NCBI RefSeq assembly: GCF_023856365.1
Contig: NW_026042815.1
Span: forward strand, 29,720-93,719
Source: Brienomyrus brachyistius
Lineage: Eukaryota > Chordata > Actinopteri > Osteoglossiformes > Mormyridae
Direction: 5' to 3'
DNA: 64,000 nucleotides
In this document: positions 2,965 through 48,026 of the stretch, in pieces
Numbering within the stretch: position 1 is the first letter of the stretch
How the letters are laid out: every line of letters starts with the position of its first letter
Program-made: the position numbers and the translations under genes
The notes under the pieces: model-generated
What the model was told of the DNA's origin: nothing
Database searches by the model: none
Seen by the model: the letters and a program-made list of their open reading frames with translations, nothing else

Positions 2965-3303
2965 TGTTAGGTTGAAGAAACAGTTGTTAATCATTTCTGT
3001 ATGATCAGCAATGAGTGTAAATATATATGTATACGTTATTTCTTATCTTCTAGCCACATACTCTTAGCTATTGTACTCTAAGTAGGTGGTTAACAGCTGC
3101 CTACTTAGATAAGAATCTCACTTCCCTCTCTTGCGCCCCCCATTGACTATAAATAAAGAAGACAAGGGGAACCACCCTTTGTAACACATTCTGCTGTAGT
3201 TTGCATTGCAGAGAGTGTGGGTACCCTTGCAAGTAAAACTGTAACCTGTGTGTGTCTCATAAATGTGGAGTTGGGGTGGAAACGCCGGGCGCTTTCCCCA
3301 ACA
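2965..3303 (+). repeat. 5' LTR of provirus
   Basis: A 339-bp LTR, TGTTAGG...CCCAACA, matching the 3' LTR base for base on visual comparison. It contains a TATA box overlapping a polyadenylation signal (3148-3158) and starts directly after the GGGAC target duplication. Confidence 0.95.
3148..3158 (+). promoter_or_regulatory. Overlapping TATA box and AATAAA in the LTR
   Basis: TATAAATAAAG serves both as a TATA box (3148-3154) and as a polyadenylation hexamer (3152-3157). Transcription would start about 25-30 bp downstream, so the hexamer lies in U3 and is present only in the 3' end of the transcript. The 3' LTR copy is at 10463-10473. Confidence 0.6.
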
Positions 3304-3894: not shown

Positions 3895-5365
3895 ATGGGG
3901 AAGAATCAAAGTAAACAAATGGAACTAGAGGGAGATGAGAAGTTTATGGAAGGATATAAGCCAGGATCAGGACAAATAAGTAGTCAGAGATGGAGGAAAA
4001 AAACATGGGTTTGAAGGAAAACTCCACACTCCAGATATATTAAAATTACAGGGAAACTTAAAACTGGAGATGTTACAGACTACCAATAAGAAAGAAGGTA
4101 AAGACAGAAAAAAAGAATATGTTTTTTCTGATGCATGGTTAGAACAGAGTAAATTAAGAGATAATAAAAGACAGCAAAAAAAGGGAAATAAGGAGAAAAA
4201 ATTACAGGCGACTTTAATTACACTAGATGAGGAGACGGCAACAAAATCTTCTGCCGCTCCAGTTCCCTTACTGCCCCCACAAATTCCAATGATTGCGCCT
4301 GCACCAGTTCCAGCTGTAAATAGACGACAAATAGGAGGAGGGGAATCATCTCGAATGATGACCCGAGGGTCTAACCCTTCTCTGTATCCGTTAAAGGATC
4401 TGGAGACAAGTAAAGTACGCTGGCATCCAAAAAATGACACAGAACAGGAAGACTGGGAGAATGATTTGGTGTGTCCACTCGTAGAAGTGGCAAATCCAAA
4501 TCGAGGCCCAAATAATGCAGGACCCGAAACTATGTTAGTATATAGACCCTGGACCGCTGAGGATAGAACAGCGGCTTTAAAAGGAATACCCCCGGTTGAA
4601 GAAGGGGTACCCGAGTTTTGGACTGCCATCCTAGAATTACAAAGTAGTTTTCATTTGAACGGCAGGGAAATGTATAGATGTCTCAGACAGTTGTTTACCC
4701 ATAAATGGGGACGTGTAGCGGGAGACTTCACAGGACATGGTAATAATGATGAAGTCTTAGCACATGACTCGCAGGAACTCATACAAGCATTACGAGACTT
4801 GCGAAACAGGGTAGAGACAGCCTTCGTAAGACGCGCAGACTATGGACGAATAGCGCAATGTAAACAAAAAGATGGAGAGGAACCTGAGGATTTTATGGAT
4901 AGAATGAGAGTTGTATTTAGAGGAAACTCAGGGATCCCATTTGATGAAGAGGCAGTAGGAGTGTACCAACAACAGCTAAAACGAGCTTTTGTCGCAGGCC
5001 TAAAGCCCGAATTGCGAAAATATCTTGACAAACATTGGGTACATCAGAATACTGGTTCAGTCCAACAAGCACTATAATATGCTCAACACGCGCAGAAAGC
5101 GCAGAAACAGGAAAAGACAGACACAATATTCAGCGCCTCAGAAGTAGTAGCGCTAGTGCAAATGAATCCTCCGGGGAGGGGAGGATTCAGAGGAAGGTCA
5201 AGAGGCCGAGGAAGGGGGAGAGGTGTTTTCAGAAACAATTACAGGAATTCGTCTCAGCAAGATAACATTTGCTGGACATGCAGGAAACCTGGACACTTAG
5301 CTAGGAATTGTAGAGTAGGGAAACAACCATATAACCCAAACTCCATTGAAAACAATGATCAATGA
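3895..5365 (+). pseudogene. gag: gag, interrupted by a frameshift and a nonsense codon
   Basis: Gag polyprotein (matrix, capsid, nucleocapsid) that assembles viral cores at the membrane. The start at 3895 gives MGKNQS, an N-myristoylation signal (Gly2, Ser6). That frame closes at TGA 4012-4014. The downstream gag frame is already open from 3980, so a one-base length change in the A7 run at 3997-4003 is the likely break. The main body runs 4070-5077 and is stopped by TAA (5075-5077). The same frame continues to 5365 with a basic Gly/Arg-rich stretch and one CCHC zinc knuckle (CX2CX4HX4C, 5270-5311). It closes with TGA 5363-5365, after which pro-pol continues in frame. Confidence 0.85.
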
Positions 5366-6376
5366 CCCCCCTCGGAGGCCCCTGTTACCGACACCATCCG
5401 AGGCAAAACAGAGGTGATTTTAAGAAAGGAAACGGAGGTCACTTTACAAGACCTTTTAGATAAGGAAATAGATTTACAAGCAGTGTGTCAGTTATTAGCA
5501 GAAAGGCAGTGGGAAACCTTGCCAAGTCGGAAGTTAGTCATAAACGGCAAAGTATATGAATGTCTGTGTGACACTGGAGCATGTAGGACTGTCCTAACCT
5601 CCAGTCCTCCCGGAGTCACATATTCTTCATCAGTCATAAATATAAAAACGGCAGGAGGTCAGACAGACAGACATCAGTTAACAAACCCAGTTGCAGTAAA
5701 AGATAAGGAAACTGGACTTGAATGTCAAGCACAGGTGTTAATAAGCCCTTCTTGTCCTGTTAACTTGTTAGGCCGAGACCTTATGGTACAAATGGGCATT
5801 AGCGTGGTTGCCACAGCCACTGGCATGAAAGCAATCGTAAATGAAGAAGCTTATGTTGTGCAAGGAACCACAACACCACAATATTACTGGTCTCTGGACC
5901 TAGGGGGAACTGCACAGACACGAGAATTATTGCGGAAAACTAGAGAAAAGCAGTCCCCTAGACAGGCCCAGTTCATGCCTGACGATGCCTTACACGTCAC
6001 TATGTGGTACAAAGACACCCTTGGACCAGATTATGTCTATGACAAAACGTTTCATGCCCTCCAAGACACTTGTATTACCTTACAACATATGTATGTTAAC
6101 CCCACCACTGGGTTTTCAGCAGCCTCAGTCATTTTATCTAACAAGCAACAGGCTGTATTTAGAGAGAGAACACCACACGTATCTCTTTCAAAACCACCCC
6201 AGATGCAGTGGAGAGATGTAGAGATGTTCTTACGAGATTCTATGCACAGTTACAATGACTACCAACCCGTATCTGGCTCCTGTTGGAGCTATGATGAGAA
6301 ACACAATGTGTGGCGGTTTCCTTTGGGATGGAGAGTTCAAACCACTCCCACCACACACTTAAAGGACCCAACCTGA
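5366..6376 (+). CDS. pro: pro region: retroviral protease plus 2H phosphoesterase-like domain
   Basis: The frame is open without an ATG directly after the gag TGA, in the same frame as gag, consistent with translation by stop readthrough. Counting from 5414, the aspartic-protease active site is DTGA (Asp53), with the C-terminal protease strand CPVNLLGRDLM about 60 residues later. The downstream ~100 residues are unlike protease or RT. They show HVTM (His194) and HVSL (His255), 61 residues apart, separated by helix- and strand-like segments, the layout of a 2H phosphoesterase. A TGA at 6374-6376 ends the frame before RT. The same frame resumes immediately, so that stop is probably a nonsense change. 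Protease call 0.9; 2H call about 0.55. Confidence 0.8.
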   Translation, partial: PPSEAPVTDTIRGKTEVILRKETEVTLQDLLDKEIDLQAVCQLLAERQWETLPSRKLVINGKVYECLCDTGACRTVLTSSPPGVTYSSSVINIKTAGGQTDRHQLTNPVAVKDKETGLECQAQVLISPSCPVNLLGRDLMVQMGISVVATATGMKAIVNEEAYVVQGTTTPQYYWSLDLGGTAQTRELLRKTREKQSPRQAQFMPDDALHVTMWYKDTLGPDYVYDKTFHALQDTCITLQHMYVNPTTGFSAASVILSNKQQAVFRERTPHVSLSKPPQMQWRDVEMFLRDSMHSYNDYQPVSGSCWSYDEKHNVWRFPLGWRVQTTPTTHLKDPT

Positions 6377-9300
6377 CAAATTTTTTCAACCCTGGAGGAG
6401 GGATCATGTCCAGATCTAGATCGCCTCCCAGAAGGGTTGTGGTCGTCCTCCCCCACTGATGTAGGGCTGGTAAAGGGGTTTCCACCTTACAAAGTAATTG
6501 TGAAATCAGAACACCGTCCGGTAGTTAGGCAATACCCATTAAAACCTGAAGCAGAAAAAGGTATAGCCCCTGTAGTGCAAGACATGTTAGCATCAGGAAT
6601 ATTGCGAGAGGCTCCTGAAGCCACTTGCAACACTCCTATCTTTCCAGTCCAGAAGGGACATACAGGGAAATGGCGCATGGTGCAGGATTTAAGACCGGTT
6701 AATAACATAGTGCAACATGCAGCACCAGACGTGCCTAACCCACACTTATTGCTCAACTCATTGACTCCTGATAAAAGCTACTTCTCAGTAGTGGATCTTA
6801 GTAATGCATTTTTCTCAGTACCATTGCACCCTGATTCTCAACATTTATTTGGATTTACCTATAAAGGGAAAAAATATACATATACTAGACTCCCTCAGGG
6901 ATTTTCTGAAAGTCCACATGTATATACCATGGCCCTTAGATACTCTATGAGTACCTGTGAAATACCATCACATAGTCAGGTATTACTATACGTGGATGAT
7001 ATCTTAATAGCAGCAGATTCAGAACAACATTGCAAAGAAACTACCCTAACTGTGCTTCAGCATTTATACAATACTGGACATAAAGCTTCTAAACAGAAGT
7101 TGCAGTATTGCAAAAAGACAGTTGTCTATTTAGGGCATAACCTTTCACAAAAAGGTCGCTCGCTGCTAGAGATAAGGAAACAAGCTATACAGGAAGCACC
7201 TAAACCACAGACTAAACAACAGATGATGTCCTTTTTAGGGCTCTGCAATTATTGTAGAGAATGGTTACCAGATTATGCTTTTCTAGTTCAACCTTTGCAA
7301 AATTTAATATACGGGAAGGAGATGACTCTAAAGGACAAAATACAATGGACTGAGGACGGAGAAAATGCTTTTACAAATTTAAAAAGAATGTTGCAAACCA
7401 ATGTGACCCTTGCTCTACCAGATTATCAACAACCATTCACCCTATGTGTAGATGCTAATCAAGGTTATATGAAAGCAGTATTAACACAGCCATTCGGAGC
7501 AAAAGAGAGACCGTTAGCATTCTATTCAAAACGATTAGATGCAGTAGCAGCTGGCTTTCCACAGTGTTTACAGGCATGTGCAGCTGCTGCAGAAGCAGTA
7601 AAGGTATCAGCAGAATTGGTACTTTGTCACCCCCTCATACTTAAAGTTCCTCATTCTGTGTCTCTAATCTTGTTGCAGACACCGCTTCCATTCTTAACAC
7701 ATACAAGACATCTTACCTTAGTGTCACTTTTGCTCTCACAACCTAACATTGAACTTCAGCGGTGTGGCCTATTGAACCCTAGCACGCTCCTCCCCACCGC
7801 AGAGGATGGGGAGCCACATTCTTGCAAAGCAACAATAGAAGAACAAACAAAACCAAGAGCAGATATTCTGCAAACTTTTATACCAGGATCAGAAGTTGTT
7901 TATGTAGATGGCTCAGCATCAAAAAATGATATGGGAAAAAATAAAGTTGGGTATGCTGTAGTTACATCTACTGAAGTGTTAGAAGCCAATGCACTCCCTT
8001 CTACTTGTTCAGCACAAGCGGCTGAACTCTATGCTGTGATCAGGGCATGTGAACTGTTCAAGAACAAGTCACTTACTATCTACACTGATAGTCAATATGT
8101 GTTTGCAGCTGTCCATCACCATGCAAGAGTCTGGAAAAATAGAGGTTTTAGAACATCACAGGGCACATCTCTTACTCATACAAATTTGCTACTTAGATTA
8201 TTAGACGTTGTGCATTTACCGACTCACTTTGCACTGTGCAAATGCAAAGCACACCAGACTGATGACTCTGCAGAAACCGCAGGAAATAGTTTTGCAGATA
8301 AAACCGCCAAAGAAGCGGCACTGAAACAACCTACCTTATCAGTGGCAGACATTCTTTTTATAGATAGCGATGTGCTATGTGATGCACAGATTCATGCTCC
8401 TAAAATAGAAGTACAAAGTTGGATCAAAAGAGGAGCAATACAACGAGAGAAAGTTTACTATATGAATGACAAGCCCATCCTACCAAAAAATTTATACAAA
8501 ACAGCTGCTTTGGTGAGCCATGGAAATACTCATGTCTCAACAGGAGGGATGGTACATATCATACAACAATATTTCTATGCTATAAATTTTTCTGATTATG
8601 CAAAACAATTTTGTAGGACATGCTTAATTTGTTGTAAACACAATGCACAAGGAAACATCAGACCAAAACGTGGCCAGTTCCCCACAGCTGAGTATCCGTT
8701 TCAAGTTGTACATATGGATTTTATTGAATTATCTTGGTCACAAGGAAAGAAATACTGTCTAGTTATTATAGACACCTTTTCTAAGTGGGTAGAAATATAC
8801 CCTGTAAAGCATTGTGATGCAATGACCGTTGCAAAATGTTTGGTAAGCCATTATTTCCCTACCTATGGCATACCTCATATTATAAGATCAGACAATGGGA
8901 CTCATTTTGTAAATCAGACTATGTCCCTTTGCTCACAAGCATTAGGTTTTACGCTTAAGAATCATTGTGCGTATCACCCTCAGAGCGCAGGCTTAGTGGA
9001 AAGGACCAACGGCACTATTAAAACAAGGCTAAGAAAGACAGTGGAAGAGACAAAAAGGCCGTGGCCAGAATGTTTGTCTCTAGTAAAATTATGGATGAGA
9101 ATAACTCCCACTCCTGCAGGATTAACACCTTTTGAAATAGTGTATGGTAGACCATTTCCCCTAGCAACTGAAATGAATGACATAGAAAAAGCAGACCGAG
9201 AAAATACGCTGGCCGATTGGATGCGTAAACTACTAACATCACAACAAAAACATAGCCCCAGTAGTCTGCCGGTAAATTCTGTTTCTACTCAACAGGATAA

Positions 9301-9493
9301 CTTGCAGCCGGGAGATTGGGTCCTGGTCAAGGTCCTGTTGCGGAAAGATTGGAGCACACCTCGGTGGGACGGTCCTTATCAAGTCCTCCTTACAACACCA
9401 ACAGCAGTAAAGATCGCAGAACGACCTTCCTGGATACACAAAAGTCACTGTAAACCCATCAAGCCCTTATCAGAGGCCTCAGCAACAGAGTAG
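6377..9493 (+). CDS. pol: pol: reverse transcriptase, RNase H and integrase
   Basis: Copies viral RNA into DNA and integrates it. First ATG is 6437 but the frame is open from 6377, directly after TGA, and the typical RT leader falls there, so this is the body of a longer gag-pro-pol product. Counting from 6437: LPQG and YVDD (185-188) of RT; RNase H acidic residues starting in YVDGS (Asp491), then AELYA, YTDSQ and the ADKTAK Asp; integrase zinc site HGNTH (His695) with CRTC; catalytic Asp761, Asp819, Glu855 (DD35E); and the C-terminal GPYQV module typical of gamma-like integrases. This 1018-residue part has no internal stop, in contrast to gag and env. Confidence 0.93.
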   Translation, partial: QIFSTLEEGSCPDLDRLPEGLWSSSPTDVGLVKGFPPYKVIVKSEHRPVVRQYPLKPEAEKGIAPVVQDMLASGILREAPEATCNTPIFPVQKGHTGKWRMVQDLRPVNNIVQHAAPDVPNPHLLLNSLTPDKSYFSVVDLSNAFFSVPLHPDSQHLFGFTYKGKKYTYTRLPQGFSESPHVYTMALRYSMSTCEIPSHSQVLLYVDDILIAADSEQHCKETTLTVLQHLYNTGHKASKQKLQYCKKTVVYLGHNLSQKGRSLLEIRKQAIQEAPKPQTKQQMMSFLGLCNYCREWLPDYAFLVQPLQNLIYGKEMTLKDKIQWTEDGENAFTNLKRMLQTNVTLALPDYQQPFTLCVDANQGYMKAVLTQPFGAKERPLAFYSKRLDAVAAGFPQCLQACAAAAEAVKVSAELVLCHPLILKVPHSVSLILLQTPLPFLTHTRHLTLVSLLLSQPNIELQRCGLLNPSTLLPTAEDGEPHSCKATIEEQTKPRADILQTFIPGSEVVYVDGSASKNDMGKNKVGYAVVTSTEVLEANALPSTCSAQAAELYAVIRACELFKNKSLTIYTDSQYVFAAVHHHARVWKNRGFRTSQGTSLTHTNLLLRLLDVVHLPTHFALCKCKAHQTDDSAETAGNSFADKTAKEAALKQPTLSVADILFIDSDVLCDAQIHAPKIEVQSWIKRGAIQREKVYYMNDKPILPKNLYKTAALVSHGNTHVSTGGMVHIIQQYFYAINFSDYAKQFCRTCLICCKHNAQGNIRPKRGQFPTAEYPFQVVHMDFIELSWSQGKKYCLVIIDTFSKWVEIYPVKHCDAMTVAKCLVSHYFPTYGIPHIIRSDNGTHFVNQTMSLCSQALGFTLKNHCAYHPQSAGLVERTNGTIKTRLRKTVEETKRPWPECLSLVKLWMRITPTPAGLTPFEIVYGRPFPLATEMNDIEKADRENTLADWMRKLLTSQQKHSPSSLPVNSVSTQQDNLQPGDWVLVKVLLRKDWSTPRWDGPYQVLLTTPTAVKIAERPSWIHKSHCKPIKPLSEASATE

Positions 9494-9584
9494 CAGTGGA
9501 AGTCCGCTACAAAGGCACAGTAACCAATAGGGTGCTGTTGTCTCAACCCGGTGAAGAAAACAACTGAGCTGCACTCTATTTAGG

Positions 9585-10102
9585 ATGGCCCTGATAGGGT
9601 GGGGATGTGGTAAAGTGACTCTAGGGGTCATTCTTGTTGTAGGACTTGTATGGTTGTCCTGGCTCTCACCAGCTCCATTACAGCACCTACGGCGATGGAC
9701 CCATGATGACTTCCATCTACGCCCGTTGCCCGCTGACCACTCACATCCATTTATGCAAAACTACTGGTACCGATATGTACATGATACTGTAACAGCGAAA
9801 AATGTGACAAATTGCTATGTTTGTTCAGTAATGCTCACTCATAGTGAAGGACCTACGGTGTATGGCAGAGCTATGAATATCTTCTGCAGGTATAGGATAT
9901 CAAAGTAATGTTTCACTTATATTTTCTTTTGTTTTTCATTTTATTTTTCTGTTGTTTTATTACTGTTATACCATGTTTGAAAATGTTTATTAATCAAGCT
10001 CTTAACGCTGCTTTTCGGACACGCAGTACAATGTTTCTCTCCCTTACCCAAACTATAGAGACAGAGCCTGTTTCCAGCGATGGCGATGAAGAAGACATAT
10101 AA
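9585..10102 (+). pseudogene. env: env, internally deleted
   Basis: Envelope glycoprotein remnant. The frame from 9585 has an N-terminal hydrophobic segment, a short surface-subunit start and an N-glycosylation sequon in a CYVC context, then stops at 9906-9908. A second frame at 9908-10102 has a hydrophobic anchor of about 20 residues, a Cys pair and an acidic tail ending in DGDEEDI, as expected for the transmembrane subunit. Retroviral env is usually above 450 codons, so more than 1 kb between the two ends is missing, including the cleavage and fusion regions. The copy cannot make an envelope. Confidence 0.75.
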
Positions 10103-10270
10103 TTCATAATGACGGCCGAGCCGAAAGCACCCGTGCAGGGCTCGGACCTGAAGAACCGGAATTAAATGTTTTCCAGGATAATGACAATGTGGTCTAAATG
10201 AAGGTTGTACCTAAAGTGCTTTTGCAACTTGTACAATGTTGATGCTTCTGATCATACTGTCATGATAAAC

Positions 10271-10279: not shown

Positions 10280-10618
10280 TGTTAGGTTGAAGAAACAGTT
10301 GTTAATCATTTCTGTATGATCAGCAATGAGTGTAAATATATATGTATACGTTATTTCTTATCTTCTAGCCACATACTCTTAGCTATTGTACTCTAAGTAG
10401 GTGGTTAACAGCTGCCTACTTAGATAAGAATCTCACTTCCCTCTCTTGCGCCCCCCATTGACTATAAATAAAGAAGACAAGGGGAACCACCCTTTGTAAC
10501 ACATTCTGCTGTAGTTTGCATTGCAGAGAGTGTGGGTACCCTTGCAAGTAAAACTGTAACCTGTGTGTGTCTCATAAATGTGGAGTTGGGGTGGAAACGC
10601 CGGGCGCTTTCCCCAACA
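10280..10618 (+). repeat. 3' LTR of provirus
   Basis: 339 bp, TGTTAGG...CCCAACA, with no difference seen from the 5' LTR. It is followed by target duplication GGGAC at 10619-10623. Confidence 0.95.
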
Positions 10619-19067: not shown

Positions 19068-21949
19068 AACTCAACAAGGCACAGCAGCAGACCGAGAGCC
19101 AACGTCTCGGTCTGCTGCAAGAGGTATACTATTGGCTAAACCAGCCCGACGTCCGGGAGGATCCCGTCGCGCTGAACTTAGCCACTGACAGCTGCGATCT
19201 CCTGCTGGCGATGTCCCCATCGGAGGGCGGGCATCGTCTAGGAGAGGTGCGCTCCCACCTCAACCAGCTGGTTCAGCGCCTAACAGCGCGGAGGTTGGGG
19301 CTGGACGCACGGTGCGTCCCGGAGGTTGTTCCCCAGCCGTCCGTCCTGTCGGACGTGGAACAGCCTCCCGCGGACACCATGACGAAGAGGAAGAAGAAGA
19401 AGAAGAAGAAGCACGCGATCGCCCCTGCAATCGTTTTGGGAGCGTGCGCGCTCATCCCCGCTTCTCTCCTAACCGGGGAATTGGAGGACTCCCCGGCTGA
19501 CCTCGACGTCATCACCGCAGCTAAGCTGCCTGCGCTGGCAGCTTCCCCAGTCCGGGGAGAGCACCCAGCCGCCGCTGAGCTGCTACCGCCCCTCGAGCGG
19601 TACTACTTCCGGCCGGAGCGGCTGGCCAACAAGGGGGCCCGCGCGGTGCGGGACGCTATCCCGCGTGTGCCCCGGGCACTTAAAGGGACCACGTCCGTCT
19701 TGCCCGCACGGGACCTACCGGTCCCGCCGCCTGCAGCCCCTGCTCAGCCCGAGCAGCCGCCTCCTGTGCCTGCAGCCCCTGCTCAGCCCGAGCAGCCGCC
19801 TCCTGTGCCTGCAGCCCCTGCTCAGCCCGAGCAGCCGCCTCCTGTGCCTGCAGCCCCTGCTCAGCCCGAGCAGCCGCCTCCTGTGCCTGCAGCCCCTGCT
19901 CAGCCCGAGCAGCAGCCGCCATTGCCGGCGGACCCCGCTCCCGTGCAGCCGCCATTACCGGCGGACCCCGCTCCCGTGCAGCCGCCTGCGCAGCCGCCTT
20001 CGCTGCCTGCGCAGCCGCCTTCACTGCCTGCACAGCCCCCTTCGCCTGCTGCAGCTCCAGGGCAGGCGCCCCCACTGCAGCCGCCTGCTGCAGCTCCCGG
20101 GCAGGCGCCCCCACTGCAGCCACCTGCTGCAGCTCCCGGGCAGGCGCCCCCACTGCAGCCAGCTCCTGTTCCTGACCGTGCTCCTGTTCCTGCAGAGGCG
20201 CCCCCTCTGCAGCCGCCTGCTGCAGCTCCCGGGCAGGCGCCCCCACTGCAGCCAGCTCCTGTTCCTGACCGTGCTCCTGTTCCTGCAGAGGCGCCCCCTC
20301 TGCAGCCGCCTGCTGCAGCTCCCGGGCAGGCGCCCCCACTGCAGCCACCTGCTGCAGCTCCCGGGCAGGCGCCCCCACTGCAGCCAGCTCCTGTTCCTGA
20401 CCGTGCTCCTGTTCCTGCAGAGGCGCCCCCTCTGCAGCCGCCTGCTGCAGCTCCCGGGCAGGCGCCCCCACTGCAGCCGCCTGCTGCAGCTCCCGGGCAG
20501 GCGCCCCCACTGCAGCCGCCTGCTGCAGCTCCCGGGCAGGCGCCCCCACTGCAGCCAGCTCCTGTTCCTGACCGCGCTCCTGTTCCTGCAGAGGTGCCCC
20601 CTCTGCAGCCGCCTGCTGCAGCTCCCGGGCAGGTGCCCCCACTGCAGCCATCTGCTGCAGCTCCCGGGCAGGCGCCCCCACTGCAGCCAGCTCCTGTTCC
20701 TGACCGTGCTCCTGTTCCTGCAGAGGCGCCCCCTCTGCAGCCGCCTGCTGCAGCTCCCGGGCAGGTGCCCCCACTGCAGCCATCTGCTGCAGCTCCCGGG
20801 CAGGCGCCCCCACTGCAGCCAGCTCCTGTTCCTGACCGCGCTCCTGTTCCTGACCGCGCTGCAGCAGCTCCCGAGGCGCCCCCTGACCGCGCTGCAGCAG
20901 CTCCCGAGGCGCCCCCTGACCGCGCTGCAGCAGCTCCCGAGGCGCCCCCTGACCGCGCTGCAGCAGCTCCCGAGGCGCCCCCTGACCGCGCTGCAGCAGC
21001 TCCCGAGGCGCCCCCTGACCGCGCTGCAGCAGCTCCCGAGGCGCCCCCTCCGCCTGCTGACCCGGTTCCTGTCCCTGGCCCCGCTCCTGTCCCTGGCCCC
21101 GCTCCTGTGACTCCTTCACCCTCACCCCGGCGACATCGACCCCGACCGGGGGTCGGTATGTCTGTGTCCCGCAGAGGGAGGGGACACAGACGTCGGACTG
21201 GGGTCCCTCCTGCCCTGCCCCCTGGCTCGCCCTCCCTCGCCTGCGCTCTGGCTCGGTTGGCGCCTGCAGGTCCTGGCCCTCCGGGTCGGCTGTCGCCTAC
21301 GGGTCCCCCTCCGATGCCTCGTCACCCTGCCTCGCTCCCCCCTCCGGTGCCTGGTCGGTCGCCTGCGGGCTCCCCGACGGCGGCTCCTCGGTTGCCTGCG
21401 GGGCCCCTACCTCCGGCCCTCCACCGGACGTCGCCGCCTGCTGCGGCTCCCCCCTCCTCCGGGCATTCGCCGTGGGCCCCTCCTGCTCCCTCGTCCCCTT
21501 CCCCGGTGCTCCCTCCTGCTTCCTCCCTGGCCCCTCCGCGGGTCCCTCGCCCTGCCTCCTCGGCCCCTCCGAGGTCCCCTCCGGCTCCGGCCTCCCGGCC
21601 GCCTGCGGCCCCTCCGGCTGCCTCCCGTCGCCCGCAGGGGCTCCCTCGGGCTCCCCTTCCTTCCTCCTCCTTCTCTCCCTTCTTTCCTGTCTCTGTCCCG
21701 CCTGTCTTTGTTCCTCCTCCTGCCTTTGTCCCGCCGTCCTCTGTTCCTGGTCCCTTTGTTCCGCCCCGCTCTGTTCCTGGTTTCCCGTCGTTCCCTCCCG
21801 TCACTCCCGCTCCTTTTGTTCCACCTGTTCCCTCTGTTCCTCCCTTCCTGGTCTGTCTGTCGGCTTTTCCTGTCTTGTGTAGTGTCCTGTCCTGGCTCCT
21901 GCCTCTTTGTCTGTTTTGCCTGTCTGTCTTGTTCCCTGTTCCCCGTTGA
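19058..21949 (+). CDS. Proline-rich repeat protein of non-autonomous LTR element A
   Basis: 963-codon frame starting at the ATG inside the primer site (MTDQL). The frame is also open upstream into the LTR, but the ATG at 19058 matches the MTD start of the sister elements. Order: a helical, non-repetitive N-terminus of ~190 residues; a Lys8 run (about residues 115-122, from a GAA/GAAG repeat); then ~450 residues of repeats: five units on the AAPAQPEQPPPVP pattern, many PPAAAPGQAPPLQP units, and six PEAPPDRAAAA units. A Pro/Ser/Arg-rich tail follows, ending in a hydrophobic Leu/Cys-rich stretch. It stands in the position of gag. No zinc knuckle or enzyme motif seen. Function unknown; an RNA-binding or Gag-like role is conjecture. 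Confidence 0.6.
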   Translation: MTDQLNKAQQQTESQRLGLLQEVYYWLNQPDVREDPVALNLATDSCDLLLAMSPSEGGHRLGEVRSHLNQLVQRLTARRLGLDARCVPEVVPQPSVLSDVEQPPADTMTKRKKKKKKKHAIAPAIVLGACALIPASLLTGELEDSPADLDVITAAKLPALAASPVRGEHPAAAELLPPLERYYFRPERLANKGARAVRDAIPRVPRALKGTTSVLPARDLPVPPPAAPAQPEQPPPVPAAPAQPEQPPPVPAAPAQPEQPPPVPAAPAQPEQPPPVPAAPAQPEQQPPLPADPAPVQPPLPADPAPVQPPAQPPSLPAQPPSLPAQPPSPAAAPGQAPPLQPPAAAPGQAPPLQPPAAAPGQAPPLQPAPVPDRAPVPAEAPPLQPPAAAPGQAPPLQPAPVPDRAPVPAEAPPLQPPAAAPGQAPPLQPPAAAPGQAPPLQPAPVPDRAPVPAEAPPLQPPAAAPGQAPPLQPPAAAPGQAPPLQPPAAAPGQAPPLQPAPVPDRAPVPAEVPPLQPPAAAPGQVPPLQPSAAAPGQAPPLQPAPVPDRAPVPAEAPPLQPPAAAPGQVPPLQPSAAAPGQAPPLQPAPVPDRAPVPDRAAAAPEAPPDRAAAAPEAPPDRAAAAPEAPPDRAAAAPEAPPDRAAAAPEAPPDRAAAAPEAPPPPADPVPVPGPAPVPGPAPVTPSPSPRRHRPRPGVGMSVSRRGRGHRRRTGVPPALPPGSPSLACALARLAPAGPGPPGRLSPTGPPPMPRHPASLPPPVPGRSPAGSPTAAPRLPAGPLPPALHRTSPPAAAPPSSGHSPWAPPAPSSPSPVLPPASSLAPPRVPRPASSAPPRSPPAPASRPPAAPPAASRRPQGLPRAPLPSSSFSPFFPVSVPPVFVPPPAFVPPSSVPGPFVPPRSVPGFPSFPPVTPAPFVPPVPSVPPFLVCLSAFPVLCSVLSWLLPLCLFCLSVLFPVPR

Positions 21950-39588: not shown

Positions 39589-39875
39589 TGTCACGATCGG
39601 GTACGGGTGAAGCGGCGATCGTGCGGGCAAGCAGGCAAGCAGGAAGCAGGAATACGGGGCAAACGGGAGTTTAATACGAGGACAGGGACCGGGAAACAGC
39701 TCACGCTTACGAACATCAGACATTAATGACAGACAAAGCAAACTGGGGAGACCAGGACTTAAATACACAGAACAAGGCAGCAGGAAACAAGACACGACTG
39801 GGCAGGATCAGGAAATCACACGTGGGTAATTAGGGGGCGTGGCACACACGAGGAGCGGACGAGCCGGGCATGACA
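39589..39875 (-). repeat. LTR 1 of array
   Basis: 287 bp; the outer 3' LTR in element orientation, with G-run polypurine tract on its internal side. Confidence 0.88.
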
Positions 39876-39970
39876 GAACCCCCCCCCAAAGGCGCGCTAC
39901 ACCGGGCGCGCCAAGGAAGGGGGCGACGGACGGGACGAGGCAGAACAGGACCTGGAAAACAAGAACAGAA

Positions 39971-40657
39971 TTAACGCACGACGGGAAACAGGACCGAAGC
40001 ACAAAACAAAGCCAGGGACAAGACGTGCGACAAGAGCTGACAAAGGGATGGGAAGGCAGACAGACAGATCAGGAAGGGAGAAACAGAGGGAACAGGCGGA
40101 ACACAAGGAGCGGGAGTGACGGGAGGGAACGACGGGAAACCAGGAATGGAGAAAGGAGGAAAGACAGGAGGAGGAGCAAACAAAGGAGGGACCAGGGCAG
40201 GAGAGAAGGGAGAGAAGGCGGGGGAACAAAGGGGAGCCCGTGGGAGCCCCAGCGGGCGACGGGCGGCAGCCGGAGGGGCCGCAGGCGGCCGGGAGGCCGG
40301 AGCCGGAGGGGACCGAGAAGGGGCAGAGGAGACAGGGCGAGGGACCCGCGGAGGGGCCAGGGAGGGAGCAGGAGGGAGCACCAGGGAAGGGGACGAGGGA
40401 GCTGGAAGGGGCCAGGGCGAAGGCACGGAGGAGGGGGGAGCCGCAGCAGGCGGCGATGTCCGGGGGAGGGCCGGAGGTAGGGGCCCCGCAGGCGACCGAC
40501 CAGGACCCGGAGAGGGGAGCGAGGCAGGGCGACGAGGCACCGGAGAGGGACCCGCAGGCGCCAACCGAGCCCCAGCGCAGGCGAGGCAGGGCGAGCCAGG
40601 GGGCAGGGCGGGCGGGACCCCAGCCCTGCGTCTGTGTCCCCTCCCTTTACGGGACAC
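39971..40657 (-). CDS. Second frame of element B (Pro/Arg-rich, hydrophobic tail)
   Basis: 228 codons beginning MSRKGRGHRRR. It is equivalent to the C-terminal part of the single ORF in element A but here lies in another frame, overlapping the end of ORF1. Either a frameshift split one ancestral ORF or the two are joined by recoding. Ends in the same hydrophobic Leu/Cys-rich tail. Function unknown. Confidence 0.4.
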   Translation of the reverse strand: MSRKGRGHRRRAGVPPALPPGSPCLACAGARLAPAGPSPVPRRPASLPSPGPGRSPAGPLPPALPRTSPPAAAPPSSVPSPWPLPAPSSPSLVLPPAPSLAPPRVPRPVSSAPSRSPPAPASRPPAAPPAAARRPLGLPRAPLCSPAFSPFSPALVPPLFAPPPVFPPFSIPGFPSFPPVTPAPCVPPVPSVSPFLICLSAFPSLCQLLSHVLSLALFCASVLFPVVR

Positions 40658-42527
40658 AGACCCCAGGTCGGGGTCGAATTCGCCGGGGTGAGAGAGACAA
40701 AGTCACTGGAGGAGAAGGGACAGGAGCTGGAGCTGCTGCAGGCGGAGGGGGCGCCTCTGGAGCGCGGTCAGGGACTGGAGCGCGGTCAGGGACTGGAGCG
40801 CGGTCAGCTGGCCCGGGAGCCGCTGGAGCGCGGTCAGGACTTGGAGCGCGGTCAGGGGGCGCCTGCCCTGGAGCTGCAGCAGGCGGCTGCAGTGGGGGCG
40901 CCTGCCCTGGAGCTGCAGCAGGCGGCTGCAGAGGGGGCGCCTGCCCTGGAGCTGCAGCAGGCGGCTGCAGAGGGGGCGCCTCTGCAGGAACTGGAGCGCG
41001 GTCAGGAACTGGAGCGCGGTCAGGAACTGGAGCGCGGTCAGGAACTGGAGCGCGGTCAGGAACTGGAGCGCGGTCAGGAACTGGAGCGCGGTCAGGAACT
41101 GGAGGTGGCTGCAGTGGGGGCGCCTGCCCGGGAGCTGCAGCACGGTCAGGAACTGGAGGTGGCTGCAGTGGGGGCGCCGGCCCGGGAGCTGCAGCAGGCG
41201 GCTGCAGAGGGGGCGCCTCTGCAGGAACTGGAGCGCGGTCAGGAACTGGAGCGCGGTCAGGAACAGGAGCTGGCTGCAGAGGGGGCGCCTGCCCGGGAGC
41301 TGCAGCAGGCGGCTGCAGAGGGGGCGCCTGCCCGGGAGCTGCAGCAGGCGGCTGCAGAGGGGGCGCCTGCCCGGGAGCTGCAGCAGGCGGCTGTAGAGGG
41401 GGCGCCTGCCCGGGAGCTGCAGCAGGCGGCTGCAGAGGGGGCGCCTCTGCAGGAACTGGAGCGCGGTCAGGAACTGGAACGCGGTCAGGAACAGGAACGC
41501 GGTCAGGAACAGGAGCTGGCTGCAGTGGGGGCGCCTGCCCTGGAGCTGCAGGTGGCTGCAGTGGGGGCGCCTGCCCTGGAGCTGCAGGTGGCTGCAGTGG
41601 GGGCGCCTGCCCTGGAGCTGCAGGTGGCTGCAGTGGGGGCGCCTGCCCTGAAGCTGCAGGTGGCTGCAGTGGGGGCGCCTGCCCTGGAGCTGCAGGTGGC
41701 TGCAGTGGGGGCAGCGAAGGCGGCTGCGCAGGCGGCGGCGGCTGCACGGGAGCGGGGTCCGCCGGCAATGGCGGCTGCACGGGAGCGGGGTCCGCCGGCA
41801 ATGGCGGCTGCACGGGAGCGGGGTCCGCCGGCAATGGCGGCTGCACGGGAGCGGGGTCCGCCGGCAATGGCGGCTGCACGGGAGCGGGGACTGCAGCCCT
41901 CTGGAGCAGTAAGAGCTGCCGCACGTCCTCTGCCATACTCACCAGCTCCTCGGGGTCGGAAGCGGGAGTAAATGCTGCAAAGCTCCTCTGGAGTCGCTCC
42001 GCTAGCCCCGCTACCTCCGGACTTACTGGAGGGACCAGTTCCCCCCAGATCCTCCAGAACAACCCCTGGAGGGCAAAGAACTGGGAGGCGCAGTTCACCG
42101 GCTTCCCTAAGTGAGGCGCGGGCAGCGCCTCCGGGGTGGTTACTGCAGGGGGAGAGAGCTGTGTGTCCGTGGGCGTTAACGGAGGGAGCTCCTCGGGACA
42201 GGCAATCGCCGGTCTCCTCCTCCTTCTCCGGCGCCCAGCGGCGGCGAGAGGTGGTGCGATGTCCTGAAAAACAGGCGGTGAAAGGATCGGCTCCGGGTAA
42301 GGGTAGAGGAAGGGCTCCTCGTCCTCATCCTCACTGGAGAGCCAGTACTTCCACACGGGATCGGGGTAGTGTGTGGTCAGCTTCCGGGCTGGAGGTAGAG
42401 CGGGTACTTCCCTCTCATTCTCCTCCGAAGTGATCCATAGCCGGGAGAGCGAACAGGCTCCCAGGCGGATCGTCTCCTCCGGTCCTCTCCTCCTTCTCCG
42501 GGGGCCTTTCCTTTTGTGGTCTGTCAT
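40647..42527 (-). CDS. Proline-rich ORF1 of element B
   Basis: 626 codons from the ATG that lies two bases after LTR 2, inside the self-priming site. The N-terminus has a basic cluster (RKGPRRRRRG), an acidic patch (SSEDEDEEP), a second Arg7 run, and about 100 non-repetitive residues rich in aromatic residues (FFALQGLFWRIW). The rest is PPLPADPAPVQ, PPAAPGQAPPLQ and PVPDRA repeats ending TLSLSPRR. The repeats match element A; the N-terminus does not, apart from a basic run followed by AIA. No enzyme motif seen. Confidence 0.55.
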   Translation of the reverse strand: MTDHKRKGPRRRRRGPEETIRLGACSLSRLWITSEENEREVPALPPARKLTTHYPDPVWKYWLSSEDEDEEPFLYPYPEPILSPPVFQDIAPPLAAAGRRRRRRRPAIACPEELPPLTPTDTQLSPPAVTTPEALPAPHLGKPVNCASQFFALQGLFWRIWGELVPPVSPEVAGLAERLQRSFAAFTPASDPEELVSMAEDVRQLLLLQRAAVPAPVQPPLPADPAPVQPPLPADPAPVQPPLPADPAPVQPPLPADPAPVQPPPPAQPPSLPPLQPPAAPGQAPPLQPPAASGQAPPLQPPAAPGQAPPLQPPAAPGQAPPLQPPAAPGQAPPLQPAPVPDRVPVPDRVPVPDRAPVPAEAPPLQPPAAAPGQAPPLQPPAAAPGQAPPLQPPAAAPGQAPPLQPPAAAPGQAPPLQPAPVPDRAPVPDRAPVPAEAPPLQPPAAAPGPAPPLQPPPVPDRAAAPGQAPPLQPPPVPDRAPVPDRAPVPDRAPVPDRAPVPDRAPVPDRAPVPAEAPPLQPPAAAPGQAPPLQPPAAAPGQAPPLQPPAAAPGQAPPDRAPSPDRAPAAPGPADRAPVPDRAPVPDRAPEAPPPPAAAPAPVPSPPVTLSLSPRRIRPRPGVCVP

Positions 42528-42529
42528 TC
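42518..42529 (-). other. Putative self-primed PBS of element B
   Basis: Minus-strand GAATGACAGACC adjoining LTR 2, complementary over ten bases to GTCTGTCATT located +31 from TATTTAAG in the same LTR. It contains the ORF start codon. Confidence 0.6.
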
Positions 42530-42816
42530 TGTCACGATCGGGTACGGGTGAAGCGGCGATCGTGCGGGCAAGCAGGCAAGCAGGAAGCAGGAATACGGGG
42601 CAAACGGGAGTTTAATACGAGGACAGGGACCGGGAAACAGCTCACGCTTACGAACATCAGACATTAATGACAGACAAAGCAAACTGGGGAGACCAGGACT
42701 TAAATACACAGAACAAGGCAGCAGGAAACAAGACACGACTGGGCAGGATCAGGAAATCACACGTGGGTAATTAGGGGGCGTGGCACACACGAGGAGCGGA
42801 CGAGCCGGGCATGACA
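42530..42816 (-). repeat. LTR 2 of array (shared middle LTR)
   Basis: 287 bp. It serves as 3' LTR of element C and 5' LTR of element B. Confidence 0.88.
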
Positions 42817-42911
42817 GAACCCCCCCCCAAAGGCGCGCTACACCGGGCGCGCCAAGGAAGGGGGCGACGGACGGGACGAGGCAGAACAGGACCTGGAAAA
42901 CAAGAACAGAA

Positions 42912-43598
42912 TTAACGCACGACGGGAAACAGGACCGAAGCACAAAACAAAGCCAGGGACAAGACGTGCGACAAGAGCTGACAAAGGGATGGGAAGGCAG
43001 ACAGACAGATCAGGAAGGGAGAAACAGAGGGAACAGGCGGAACACAAGGAGCGGGAGTGACGGGAGGGAACGACGGGAAACCAGGAATGGAGAAAGGAGG
43101 AAAGACAGGAGGAGGAGCAAACAAAGGAGGGACCAGGGCAGGAGAGAAGGGAGAGAAGGCGGGGGAACAAAGGGGAGCCCGTGGGAGCCCCAGCGGGCGA
43201 CGGGCGGCAGCCGGAGGGGCCGCAGGCGGCCGGGAGGCCGGAGCCGGAGGGGACCGAGAAGGGGCAGAGGAGACAGGGCGAGGGACCCGCGGAGGGGCCA
43301 GGGAGGGAGCAGGAGGGAGCACCAGGGAAGGGGACGAGGGAGCTGGAAGGGGCCAGGGCGAAGGCACGGAGGAGGGGGGAGCCGCAGCAGGCGGCGATGT
43401 CCGGGGGAGGGCCGGAGGTAGGGGCCCCGCAGGCGACCGACCAGGACCCGGAGAGGGGAGCGAGGCAGGGCGACGAGGCACCGGAGAGGGACCCGCAGGC
43501 GCCAACCGAGCCCCAGCGCAGGCGAGGCAGGGCGAGCCAGGGGGCAGGGCGGGCGGGACCCCAGCCCTGCGTCTGTGTCCCCTCCCTTTACGGGACAC
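42912..43598 (-). CDS. Second frame of element C
   Basis: 228 codons, identical in translation to the corresponding frame of element B at 39971-40657. Confidence 0.4.
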   Translation of the reverse strand: MSRKGRGHRRRAGVPPALPPGSPCLACAGARLAPAGPSPVPRRPASLPSPGPGRSPAGPLPPALPRTSPPAAAPPSSVPSPWPLPAPSSPSLVLPPAPSLAPPRVPRPVSSAPSRSPPAPASRPPAAPPAAARRPLGLPRAPLCSPAFSPFSPALVPPLFAPPPVFPPFSIPGFPSFPPVTPAPCVPPVPSVSPFLICLSAFPSLCQLLSHVLSLALFCASVLFPVVR

Positions 43599-45432
43599 AG
43601 ACCCCAGGTCGGGGTCGAATTCGCCGGGGTGAGAGAGACAAAGTCACTGGAGGAGAAGGGACAGGAGCTGGAGCTGCTGCAGGCGGAGGGGGCGCCTCTG
43701 GAGCGCGGTCAGGGACTGGAGCGCGGTCAGGGACTGGAGCGCGGTCAGCTGGCCCGGGAGCCGCTGGAGCGCGGTCAGGACTTGGAGCGCGGTCAGGGGG
43801 CGCCTGCCCTGGAGCTGCAGCAGGCGGCTGCAGTGGGGGCGCCTGCCCTGGAGCTGCAGCAGGCGGCTGCAGAGGGGGCGCCTGCCCTGGAGCTGCAGCA
43901 GGCGGCTGCAGAGGGGGCGCCTCTGCAGGAACTGGAGCGCGGTCAGGAACTGGAGCGCGGTCAGGAACTGGAGCGCGGTCAGGAACTGGAGCGCGGTCAG
44001 GAACTGGAGGTGGCTGCAGTGGGGGCGCCTGCCCGGGAGCTGCAGCACGGTCAGGAACTGGAGGTGGCTGCAGTGGGGGCGCCGGCCCGGGAGCTGCAGC
44101 AGGCGGCTGCAGAGGGGGCGCCTCTGCAGGAACTGGAGCGCGGTCAGGAACTGGAGCGCGGTCAGGAACAGGAGCTGGCTGCAGAGGGGGCGCCTGCCCG
44201 GGAGCTGCAGCAGGCGGCTGCAGAGGGGGCGCCTGCCCGGGAGCTGCAGCAGGCGGCTGCAGAGGGGGCGCCTGCCCGGGAGCTGCAGCAGGCGGCTGTA
44301 GAGGGGGCGCCTGCCCGGGAGCTGCAGCAGGCGGCTGCAGAGGGGGCGCCTCTGCAGGAACTGGAGCGCGGTCAGGAACTGGAACGCGGTCAGGAACAGG
44401 AACGCGGTCAGGAACAGGAGCTGGCTGCAGTGGGGGCGCCTGCCCTGGAGCTGCAGGTGGCTGCAGTGGGGGCGCCTGCCCTGGAGCTGCAGGTGGCTGC
44501 AGTGGGGGCGCCTGCCCTGGAGCTGCAGGTGGCTGCAGTGGGGGCGCCTGCCCTGGAGCTGCAGGTGGCTGCAGTGGGGGCGCCTGCCCTGGAGCTGCAG
44601 GTGGCTGCAGTGGGGGCAGCGAAGGCGGCTGCGCAGGCGGCGGCGGCTGCACGGGAGCGGGGTCCGCCGGCAATGGCGGCTGCACGGGAGCGGGGTCCGC
44701 CGGCAATGGCGGCTGCACGGGAGCGGGGTCCGCCGGCAATGGCGGCTGCACGGGAGCGGGGTCCGCCGGCAATGGCGGCTGCACGGGAGCGGGGACTGCA
44801 GCCCTCTGGAGCAGTAAGAGCTGCCGCACGTCCTCTGCCATACTCACCAGCTCCTCGGGGTCGGAAGCGGGAGTAAATGCTGCAAAGCTCCTCTGGAGTC
44901 GCTCCGCTAGCCCCGCTACCTCCGGACTTACTGGAGGGACCAGTTCCCCCCAGATCCTCCAGAACAACCCCTGGAGGGCAAAGAACTGGGAGGCGCAGTT
45001 CACCGGCTTCCCTAAGTGAGGCGCGGGCAGCGCCTCCGGGGTGGTTACTGCAGGGGGAGAGAGCTGTGTGTCCGTGGGCGTTAACGGAGGGAGCTCCTCG
45101 GGACAGGCAATCGCCGGTCTCCTCCTCCTTCTCCGGCGCCCAGCGGCGGCGAGAGGTGGTGCGATGTCCTGAAAAACAGGCGGTGAAAGGATCGGCTCCG
45201 GGTAAGGGTAGAGGAAGGGCTCCTCGTCCTCATCCTCACTGGAGAGCCAGTACTTCCACACGGGATCGGGGTAGTGTGTGGTCAGCTTCCGGGCTGGAGG
45301 TAGAGCGGGTACTTCCCTCTCATTCTCCTCCGAAGTGATCCATAGCCGGGAGAGCGAACAGGCTCCCAGGCGGATCGTCTCCTCCGGTCCTCTCCTCCTT
45401 CTCCGGGGGCCTTTCCTTTTGTGGTCTGTCAT
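43588..45432 (-). CDS. Proline-rich ORF1 of element C
   Basis: 614 codons. Same as element B ORF1 except for two fewer PVPDRA units (18 bp each) and one Pro/Ser difference. The start codon lies in the self-priming site next to LTR 3. Both copies staying open is consistent with a recent duplication. Confidence 0.55.
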   Translation of the reverse strand: MTDHKRKGPRRRRRGPEETIRLGACSLSRLWITSEENEREVPALPPARKLTTHYPDPVWKYWLSSEDEDEEPFLYPYPEPILSPPVFQDIAPPLAAAGRRRRRRRPAIACPEELPPLTPTDTQLSPPAVTTPEALPAPHLGKPVNCASQFFALQGLFWRIWGELVPPVSPEVAGLAERLQRSFAAFTPASDPEELVSMAEDVRQLLLLQRAAVPAPVQPPLPADPAPVQPPLPADPAPVQPPLPADPAPVQPPLPADPAPVQPPPPAQPPSLPPLQPPAAPGQAPPLQPPAAPGQAPPLQPPAAPGQAPPLQPPAAPGQAPPLQPPAAPGQAPPLQPAPVPDRVPVPDRVPVPDRAPVPAEAPPLQPPAAAPGQAPPLQPPAAAPGQAPPLQPPAAAPGQAPPLQPPAAAPGQAPPLQPAPVPDRAPVPDRAPVPAEAPPLQPPAAAPGPAPPLQPPPVPDRAAAPGQAPPLQPPPVPDRAPVPDRAPVPDRAPVPDRAPVPAEAPPLQPPAAAPGQAPPLQPPAAAPGQAPPLQPPAAAPGQAPPDRAPSPDRAPAAPGPADRAPVPDRAPVPDRAPEAPPPPAAAPAPVPSPPVTLSLSPRRIRPRPGVCVP

Positions 45433-45434
45433 TC
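45423..45434 (-). other. Putative self-primed PBS of element C
   Basis: Same 12 bases as at 42518-42529, adjoining LTR 3. Confidence 0.6.
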
Positions 45435-45721
45435 TGTCACGATCGGGTACGGGTGAAGCGGCGATCGTGCGGGCAAGCAGGCAAGCAGGAAGCAGGAATA
45501 CGGGGCAAACGGGAGTTTAATACGAGGACAGGGACCGGGAAACAGCTCACGCTTACGAACATCAGACATTAATGACAGACAAAGCAAACTGGGGAGACCA
45601 GGACTTAAATACACAGAACAAGGCAGCAGGAAACAAGACACGACTGGGCAGGATCAGGAAATCACACGTGGGTAATTAGGGGGCGTGGCACACACGAGGA
45701 GCGGACGAGCCGGGCATGACA
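45435..45721 (-). repeat. LTR 3 of array
   Basis: 287 bp; the outer 5' LTR in element orientation, followed by GTTAT. Confidence 0.88.
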
Positions 45722-46857: not shown

Positions 46858-48026
46858 TACTGAACAAAAATATAAACGCAACACTCTTGTTTCTGCTCCC
46901 ATTTTTCATGAGATGGACTTAAAGACCTACAATTCATTCCAGATACACAATATTACCATTTCTCTCAAACATTTCTCACAAATCAGTCTAAATGTGTGAT
47001 AGTGAGCACTTCTGCTTTGCTGAGATAATCCATCCCACCTCACAGGTGTGCCACATCAAGATGCTGATCTGACATCATGGGTAGTGCACAGGTGTACCTT
47101 ATACTGCCCACAATAAAAGGCCACCCTGGAATGTGCAGTTTTTTGCTTTATTGGGGGTCTGGGGACTCAGAACCGGTCAGTATCTGGTGTGACCACCATT
47201 TGCCTCATGCAATGCAACACATCTTCTTCGCATAGAGTTTATCAGATTGTCAATTGTGGCCTGTGGAATGTTGGTCCACTCCTCTTCAATGGCTGTGCGA
47301 AGTTGTTGGATATTAGTGGGAACTGGTACACGCTGTCGTATACGCCGGTCAAGCACATCCCAAACATGCTCAACGGGTGACATGTCCGGTGAGTATGCTG
47401 GCCATGCAAGAACTGGGACATTTTCAGCTTCCAAGAACTGTGTACAGATCCTTGCAACATGGGGCCGTGCATTATCTGTCTGAGTGGCTGGTCTCAGACG
47501 ATCTTGGAGGTGAACCTGCTGGATGTGGAGGTCCTGGGCTGGTGTGGTTACACGTGGTCTGCGGTTGTGAGGCCGGTTGGATGTACTGCCATATTCTCTG
47601 AAACGCCTTTGGAGACGGCTTATGGTTGAGAAATGAACATTCAATGCACGAGCAACAGATCTGGTTGACATTCCTGCTGTCAGCATGCCAATTGCACGCT
47701 CCCTCAATGCTTGTGGCATCTGTGGCATTTTGCTGTGAGACAAAACTGCACATTCCAGGGTGGCCTTTTATTGTGGGCAGTATAAGGTACACCTGTGCAC
47801 TACCCATGATGTCAGATCAGCATCTTGATGTGGCACACCTGTGAGGTGGGATGGATTATCTCAGCAAAGCAGAAGTGCTCACTATCACACATTTAGACTG
47901 ATTTGTGAGAAATGTTTGAGAGAAATGGTAATATTGTGTATCTGGAATGAATTGTAGATCTTTAAGTCCATCTCATGAAAAATGGGAGCAAAAACAAAAG
48001 TGTTGCGTTTATATTTTTGTTCAGTG
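46858..48026 (-). mobile_element. Tc1-like transposon with ~280-bp terminal inverted repeats
   Basis: Flanked by TA (46856-46857 and 48027-48028). Ends read CTGAACAAAAATATAAACGC and its mirror. Inverted similarity runs inward to about 47141 and 47747. It encloses one internally deleted transposase gene on the minus strand. Confidence 0.9.
47177..47743 (-). pseudogene. Tc1-like transposase, internally deleted
   Basis: 188 codons where about 340 are expected. The paired-like N-terminus with helix-turn-helix is kept (ERAIGMLTAGMSTRSVARAL, STISRLQRRF) and the C-terminal catalytic part is kept (DNARPH, then SPDMSPVEHVWD). The middle, including the first catalytic Asp and part of the second HTH, is missing between PATQT and DNARPH. 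The reading frame is kept across the deletion. It could bind ends but not cut. Confidence 0.85.

Follow-up and report, generated by a model that had tools for sequence, protein, structure and literature searches.

The stretch analysed in this study (the window) comprises 64,000 nt of Brienomyrus brachyistius contig NW_026042815.1 and contains a provirus in which gag, pro and pol share a single reading frame between two long terminal repeats (LTRs) (Table 1). A Pfam scan of the open reading frame (ORF) at 5366-6376 returned retroviral protease families and nothing else, and the frame at 6377-9493 gave reverse transcriptase (RT), RNase H, integrase and an integrase C-terminus of the murine leukemia virus (MLV) type. 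In this study, we found that the ORF continues behind the protease (PR) into a conserved domain and that it is closed by a UGA at 6374-6376 and preceded in frame by another at 5363-5365. The C-terminal half of this Pro module is probably a CNPase-type 2H phosphoesterase domain, which would be made by UGA readthrough and freed by the viral protease.

An initial annotation of the same DNA had placed a non-standard stretch at 5975-6260, with the paired motifs HVTM at 5993 and HVSL at 6176, and had assigned it to the 2H phosphoesterase superfamily. Both motifs lie downstream of the protease in the 5414/5366 frame, 61 residues apart, exactly as described. The domain is longer than proposed, covering 5867-6364, or residues ~168-333 (~165 residues) of the 336-residue ORF. 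Conservation was examined in an alignment (A2) of the window with 74 of 118 related proteins, from which low-coverage or extra-domain rows had been omitted. Both H-x-T/S motifs occurred together in 72 of the 75 sequences, the motif-bearing rows reaching down to ~26% identity with the window, so both histidines are conserved in relatives, to a degree not attributable to chance. A plain pattern found both motifs in 85/118 proteins, many of the remaining ones being partial or spliced-out models. In a second alignment (A3; 71 proteins, the three motif-less rows omitted) taken together with the window, the motif His, Thr, His and Ser and Trp282 ranked with the most conserved positions in the domain (71 or 72 of 72); the invariance of the histidines here is due in part to that omission. 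Between proviral families A and B, dN/dS was ~0.11 in the 2H domain and 0.09 in the protease, with synonymous sites near saturation. No relative was confirmed in the viral-contig and genome-contig sets.

Structure prediction gave a bilobal alpha/beta 2H fold. Among the 50 best matches listed in the fold comparison, CNPase crystal structures ranked first, by ~3 Z over 6u05 and ~6 over LigT. The solved neighbours among these matches were CNPase, RICH, part of a fungal ligase, bacterial CPDase and LigT. No AKAP7-type fold appeared among the matches listed, an absence that carries no weight against such a fold. The domain differs from CNPase and RICH, the vertebrate 2H enzymes with 2',3'-cyclic nucleotide 3'-phosphodiesterase activity, in being only 14-16% identical to them, in its shorter motif spacing and in its fusion to a retroviral protease. 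It shares with the AKAP7-like 2',5'-phosphodiesterases of coronaviruses and rotaviruses that it is a viral 2H domain, but it is of CNPase type by the folds among the matches listed. We regard a CNPase-type 2H fold as almost certain, and an active enzyme as probable.

Neither the UGA bounds of the ORF nor the element behind env discussed below was part of the initial annotation. We compared the two junctions among copies in the same assembly: the window, L003, ten family A/B copies (one mixed), 17 more of family A and seven of other families, one of which reaches the gag/pro junction. L001, L002 and L004-L008, which do not differ from the window copy, were left out of the counts. A UGA was present at the pro/pol junction in 35/36 loci and at the gag/pro junction in 29/30, the remaining locus, L059, being disturbed there; in L009 a UAA directly follows the gag/pro UGA. 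Of 139 rows, 101 extended beyond the domain end, every one of them with a UGA inside, and UGA accounted for 52 of the 182 out-of-frame stops of the region. Since both junctions carry UGA in families A and B despite near-saturated synonymous divergence, UGA as such seems to matter. The gag/pro context was CAA or CAG, UGA, CAA-UUA in family B (L009 excepted) and in L082 of family C, and CAA-UGA-CCC in family A. Tobacco mosaic virus has its leaky stop in the context CAA-stop-CAA-UUA. Candidate stems downstream of the pro/pol UGA could be folded in families A and B. We consider it likely that the pro-2H module is made by UGA readthrough.

In-frame stops at this place have precedents. In the accessible text of the sources, MLV-type viruses have a stop codon between gag and pol that is read through (PMC4178896), and XtERV-S of frogs has a gag/pol TGA (PMC8278194). 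The provirus described here shares the in-frame gag/pol stop with both and differs in having two UGAs in series that flank pro-2H. L019 and family C combine a B-type gag/pro with an A-type 2H and are inter-family recombinants.

Several observations weigh against a CNPase-type 2H domain bounded by two readthrough stops. The domain had no significant sequence match to any curated 2H family in Pfam, PDB sequence or profile searches; the initial interpretation is supported in part, by the predicted fold and the paired motifs. There were weak matches to single members, the profile search gave E 0.14 and 0.98, and its top row, itself not significant, was an AKAP7_NLS protein. The single PDB sequence match was a designed protein with 28 residues matched, and the HxT-HxS spacing of 61 compares with 79 in CNPase, as judged from residue numbers in PDB titles. 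With regard to the stops, P0099 passes uninterrupted from 2H to RT, as do gene models P0083 and P0092, which may be spliced, and P0119 is likely an unbroken 2H-RT protein by its Pfam domains and length; these four indicate that the second stop is limited to part of the clade. At the pro/pol junction, the exceptional locus L077 carries a sense codon instead. The copy in the window has defects of its own in gag, where the TAA at 5075 is a sense codon in sibling L003, and in env, whose missing middle is part of an open env of ~1.55 kb in copy L024. Protein lengths were tried as a measure of stop conservation and rejected, because the search admitted only ~185-588 residues and hides unbroken PR-2H-RT proteins, of which P0099 exists and P0119 suggests another.

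Table 1. Features of the provirus in the window
Feature	Positions	Strand	Remarks
5' LTR	2965-3303	+	339 bases, identical to 3' LTR
gag reading frame	3980-5077	+	TAA end in window copy
gag 3' part, CCHC-like knuckle	5078-5365	+	closed by UGA 5363-5365, gag/pro junction
Retroviral aspartic protease domain	5519-5851	+	
CNPase-type 2H phosphoesterase domain (predicted)	5867-6364	+	
First catalytic-type motif, H-V-T-M	5993-6004	+	residues 210-213
Second catalytic-type motif, H-V-S-L	6176-6187	+	residues 271-274
UGA, pro-2H/pol junction	6374-6376	+	
pol: RT, RNase H, integrase	6377-9493	+	frame as pro; UAG end
env remnant, two frames (9555-9908, 9896-10102)	9555-10102	+	middle deleted; UAA end
SECIS-type element	10101-10163	+	Rfam RF00031, 38.3 bits; extended stem 10091-10173
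3' LTR	10280-10618	+	339 bases

Directly behind the env stop lies a match to the eukaryotic selenocysteine insertion sequence (SECIS; RF00031, cut-off 35 bits), with E values of 0.0004 in 64 kb and 8.8e-6 in 1.4 kb. The element has the AUGA / AAA / UGA core, the helices and the 3' position of eukaryotic SECIS elements, and differs from them in sitting in a proviral 3' end. The stretch folds 4.5 SD below shuffles (z -4.5). Among 22 family A 3' pieces (the window, four and 17 further), 17 were at or above the cut-off, several at exactly 35.0, and the other five pieces (L022, L028, L029, L032, L041) do not include the env tail and 3' untranslated region (3'UTR). In family D (L070-L072), the equivalent stretch was present in 3/3 pieces at 93.9% identity, but all three fell short of the cut-off, L072 coming to 34.1 bits. 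In L042, a single piece contains two SECIS/3'UTR/LTR blocks, its 3' end being duplicated in part.

Such an element raises the possibility that in families A and D a SECIS in the RNA 3' end decodes the UGAs of both junctions as selenocysteine, so that Pro-2H and Pol would be selenium-dependent and the Gag:Pol ratio would answer to host selenium. Besides its score and fold, the comparison of A with D favours this: 5/82 sites of the SECIS stretch were changed as against 65/339 in the LTR (Fisher p 0.002), and in the longer stem the core motifs were unchanged and 26/26 pairs kept, the changes being four unpaired ones and two of C-G to U-G. The terminators of the A and D copies examined were UAG in pol and UAA in env, whereas family B env ends in UGA (L010, L012), as expected if UGA is recoded in A and D, although few lineages are involved. 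However, conservation of the stretch did not exceed that of the env tail (p 0.56) and was not clearly above that of the remaining UTR (p 0.075). Within family A, a change at 10144 breaks a pair in 6/16 copies, and SECIS sites varied about as often as those of the env tail (3/86 versus 4/161). In addition, families B and C have no RF00031 match in any of the 11 pieces with 3'UTR retained, yet keep the UGAs, and readthrough therefore cannot depend on this element across the whole group. On this balance of sequence evidence, we regard selenocysteine decoding in families A and D as a tentative reading, less probable than not.

Retroviral use of selenocysteine is an old and disputed idea; if this reading holds, the provirus would be the first retrovirus known to us with a genuine SECIS. 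A literature search on SECIS or selenocysteine with retroviruses or endogenous retroviruses (ERVs), within a scope that most subscription papers fall outside, found no retroviral SECIS. The viral selenoproteins named in the accessible text of PMC8310308 are pox-virus glutathione peroxidases. Pfam scans of the proviral ORFs found no selenoprotein family. Comparison with one host SECIS, C21 (42.4 bits), gave no sign that it was the donor of the element: the score of 30 did not exceed the highest among 200 shuffles (34; mean 18.8). In a genome-wide SECIS search, 150/24542 candidates were scored and no proviral copy was among the matches listed, which is uninformative on copy number.

With readthrough of whatever kind at the two UGAs, the CNPase-type 2H domain could act as follows. 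Ribosomes that read through the gag/pro UGA would produce the Pro-2H module, from which the viral protease would release the 2H domain. With His210/Thr212 and His271/Ser273, the enzyme would then convert 2',3'-cyclic phosphates, either of nucleotides or at the ends of RNA, into 2'-phosphates. This substrate is suggested by the fold neighbours, whose own substrates are 2',3'-cyclic phosphates; a possible target is RNA cleaved by metal-independent RNases of the host. The second UGA would hold back most ribosomes before RT, giving the most Gag, less Gag-Pro-2H and the least Gag-Pro-2H-Pol.

The domain might instead be a 2',5'-oligoadenylate phosphodiesterase that blunts OAS-RNase L, as the 2H enzymes of coronaviruses and rotaviruses do. 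Its superfamily motifs are identical in kind, and viral 2H enzymes with this role are documented in the accessible text of PMC8406329 and PMC10835031. We consider this unlikely. The solved neighbours among the matches listed are those named above, and the accessible text of PMC10835031 describes captures only for nidoviruses and rotaviruses. Less likely still is a spacer without catalytic activity that serves a structural or RNA-binding role: the location between PR and RT would suit it and 3/75 rows are without one or both motifs, but the motif residues are among the best kept of the domain.

A further link to cyclic phosphates may lie in the relative P0004, in which an OARD1 (C6orf130)-like macro domain (E 1.5e-58) is fused before PR-2H. 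In yeast, a 2H phosphodiesterase and then a macro-domain phosphatase act on the ADP-ribose cyclic phosphate from tRNA splicing. By analogy, a virus of the P0004 type, seen in one contig, could carry both steps.

The initial annotation had suggested that a captured 2H domain in a retroviral pol would be a new accessory function. The domain belongs to a kind already described. According to the accessible text of two papers, a CNPase or macro-domain ORF is found now and then in ERVs of fish (PMC4977317, which cites Basta et al. 2009), and fish retroviruses and walleye dermal sarcoma virus have 2H domains (PMC9503650, which cites Mazumder et al. 2002). These viruses resemble the provirus in their CNPase/2H gene, and their macro-domain ORFs may be compared with P0004; UGA bounding and a SECIS are not mentioned in the accessible text of either paper. 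Distinct here, as far as that text goes, are the setting of the 2H domain between in-frame UGAs and the two branches with a predicted SECIS.

An active domain would place retroviruses alongside nidoviruses and rotaviruses in using 2H enzymes, although theirs would be of the CNPase and not the AKAP7 type, and its position beside the protease would suggest delivery inside the particle. The UGA pair would add a way of grading Gag, Pro and Pol besides serial frameshifting and single readthrough. If the SECIS acts in families A and D, they would offer a clean, testable case of retroviral selenocysteine use, in which a SECIS sets a polyprotein ratio instead of building a selenoenzyme.

The provirus is present in at least 150 copies in the genome (150/602 candidates scored), all of those listed with a 100% identical 2H protein; the window lies in C531. 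On 12 contigs picked by eye, 13/15 same-strand copy intervals were 119-141 kb and two about double, with a median of 125.7 kb; this count omits a same-strand pair 55.5 kb apart on C2 and an opposite-strand pair on C178. The provirus apparently belongs to a very large tandem repeat. In families A and C, five proviruses (L022, L029, L032, L064, L075) adjoin 5S rRNA gene arrays with ~1.2 kb spacing, and L069 and L070 have tandem tRNA genes at regular spacing in their 3' flanks. Elsewhere in the window are a 39-base tandem repeat (19690-19979), two adjacent, similar groups of long open reading frames that overlap, the groups being ~2.9 kb apart (39830-45516), and, on the minus strand, a Tc1/mariner-type transposase fragment with DDE_3 and HTH domains (47177-47767).
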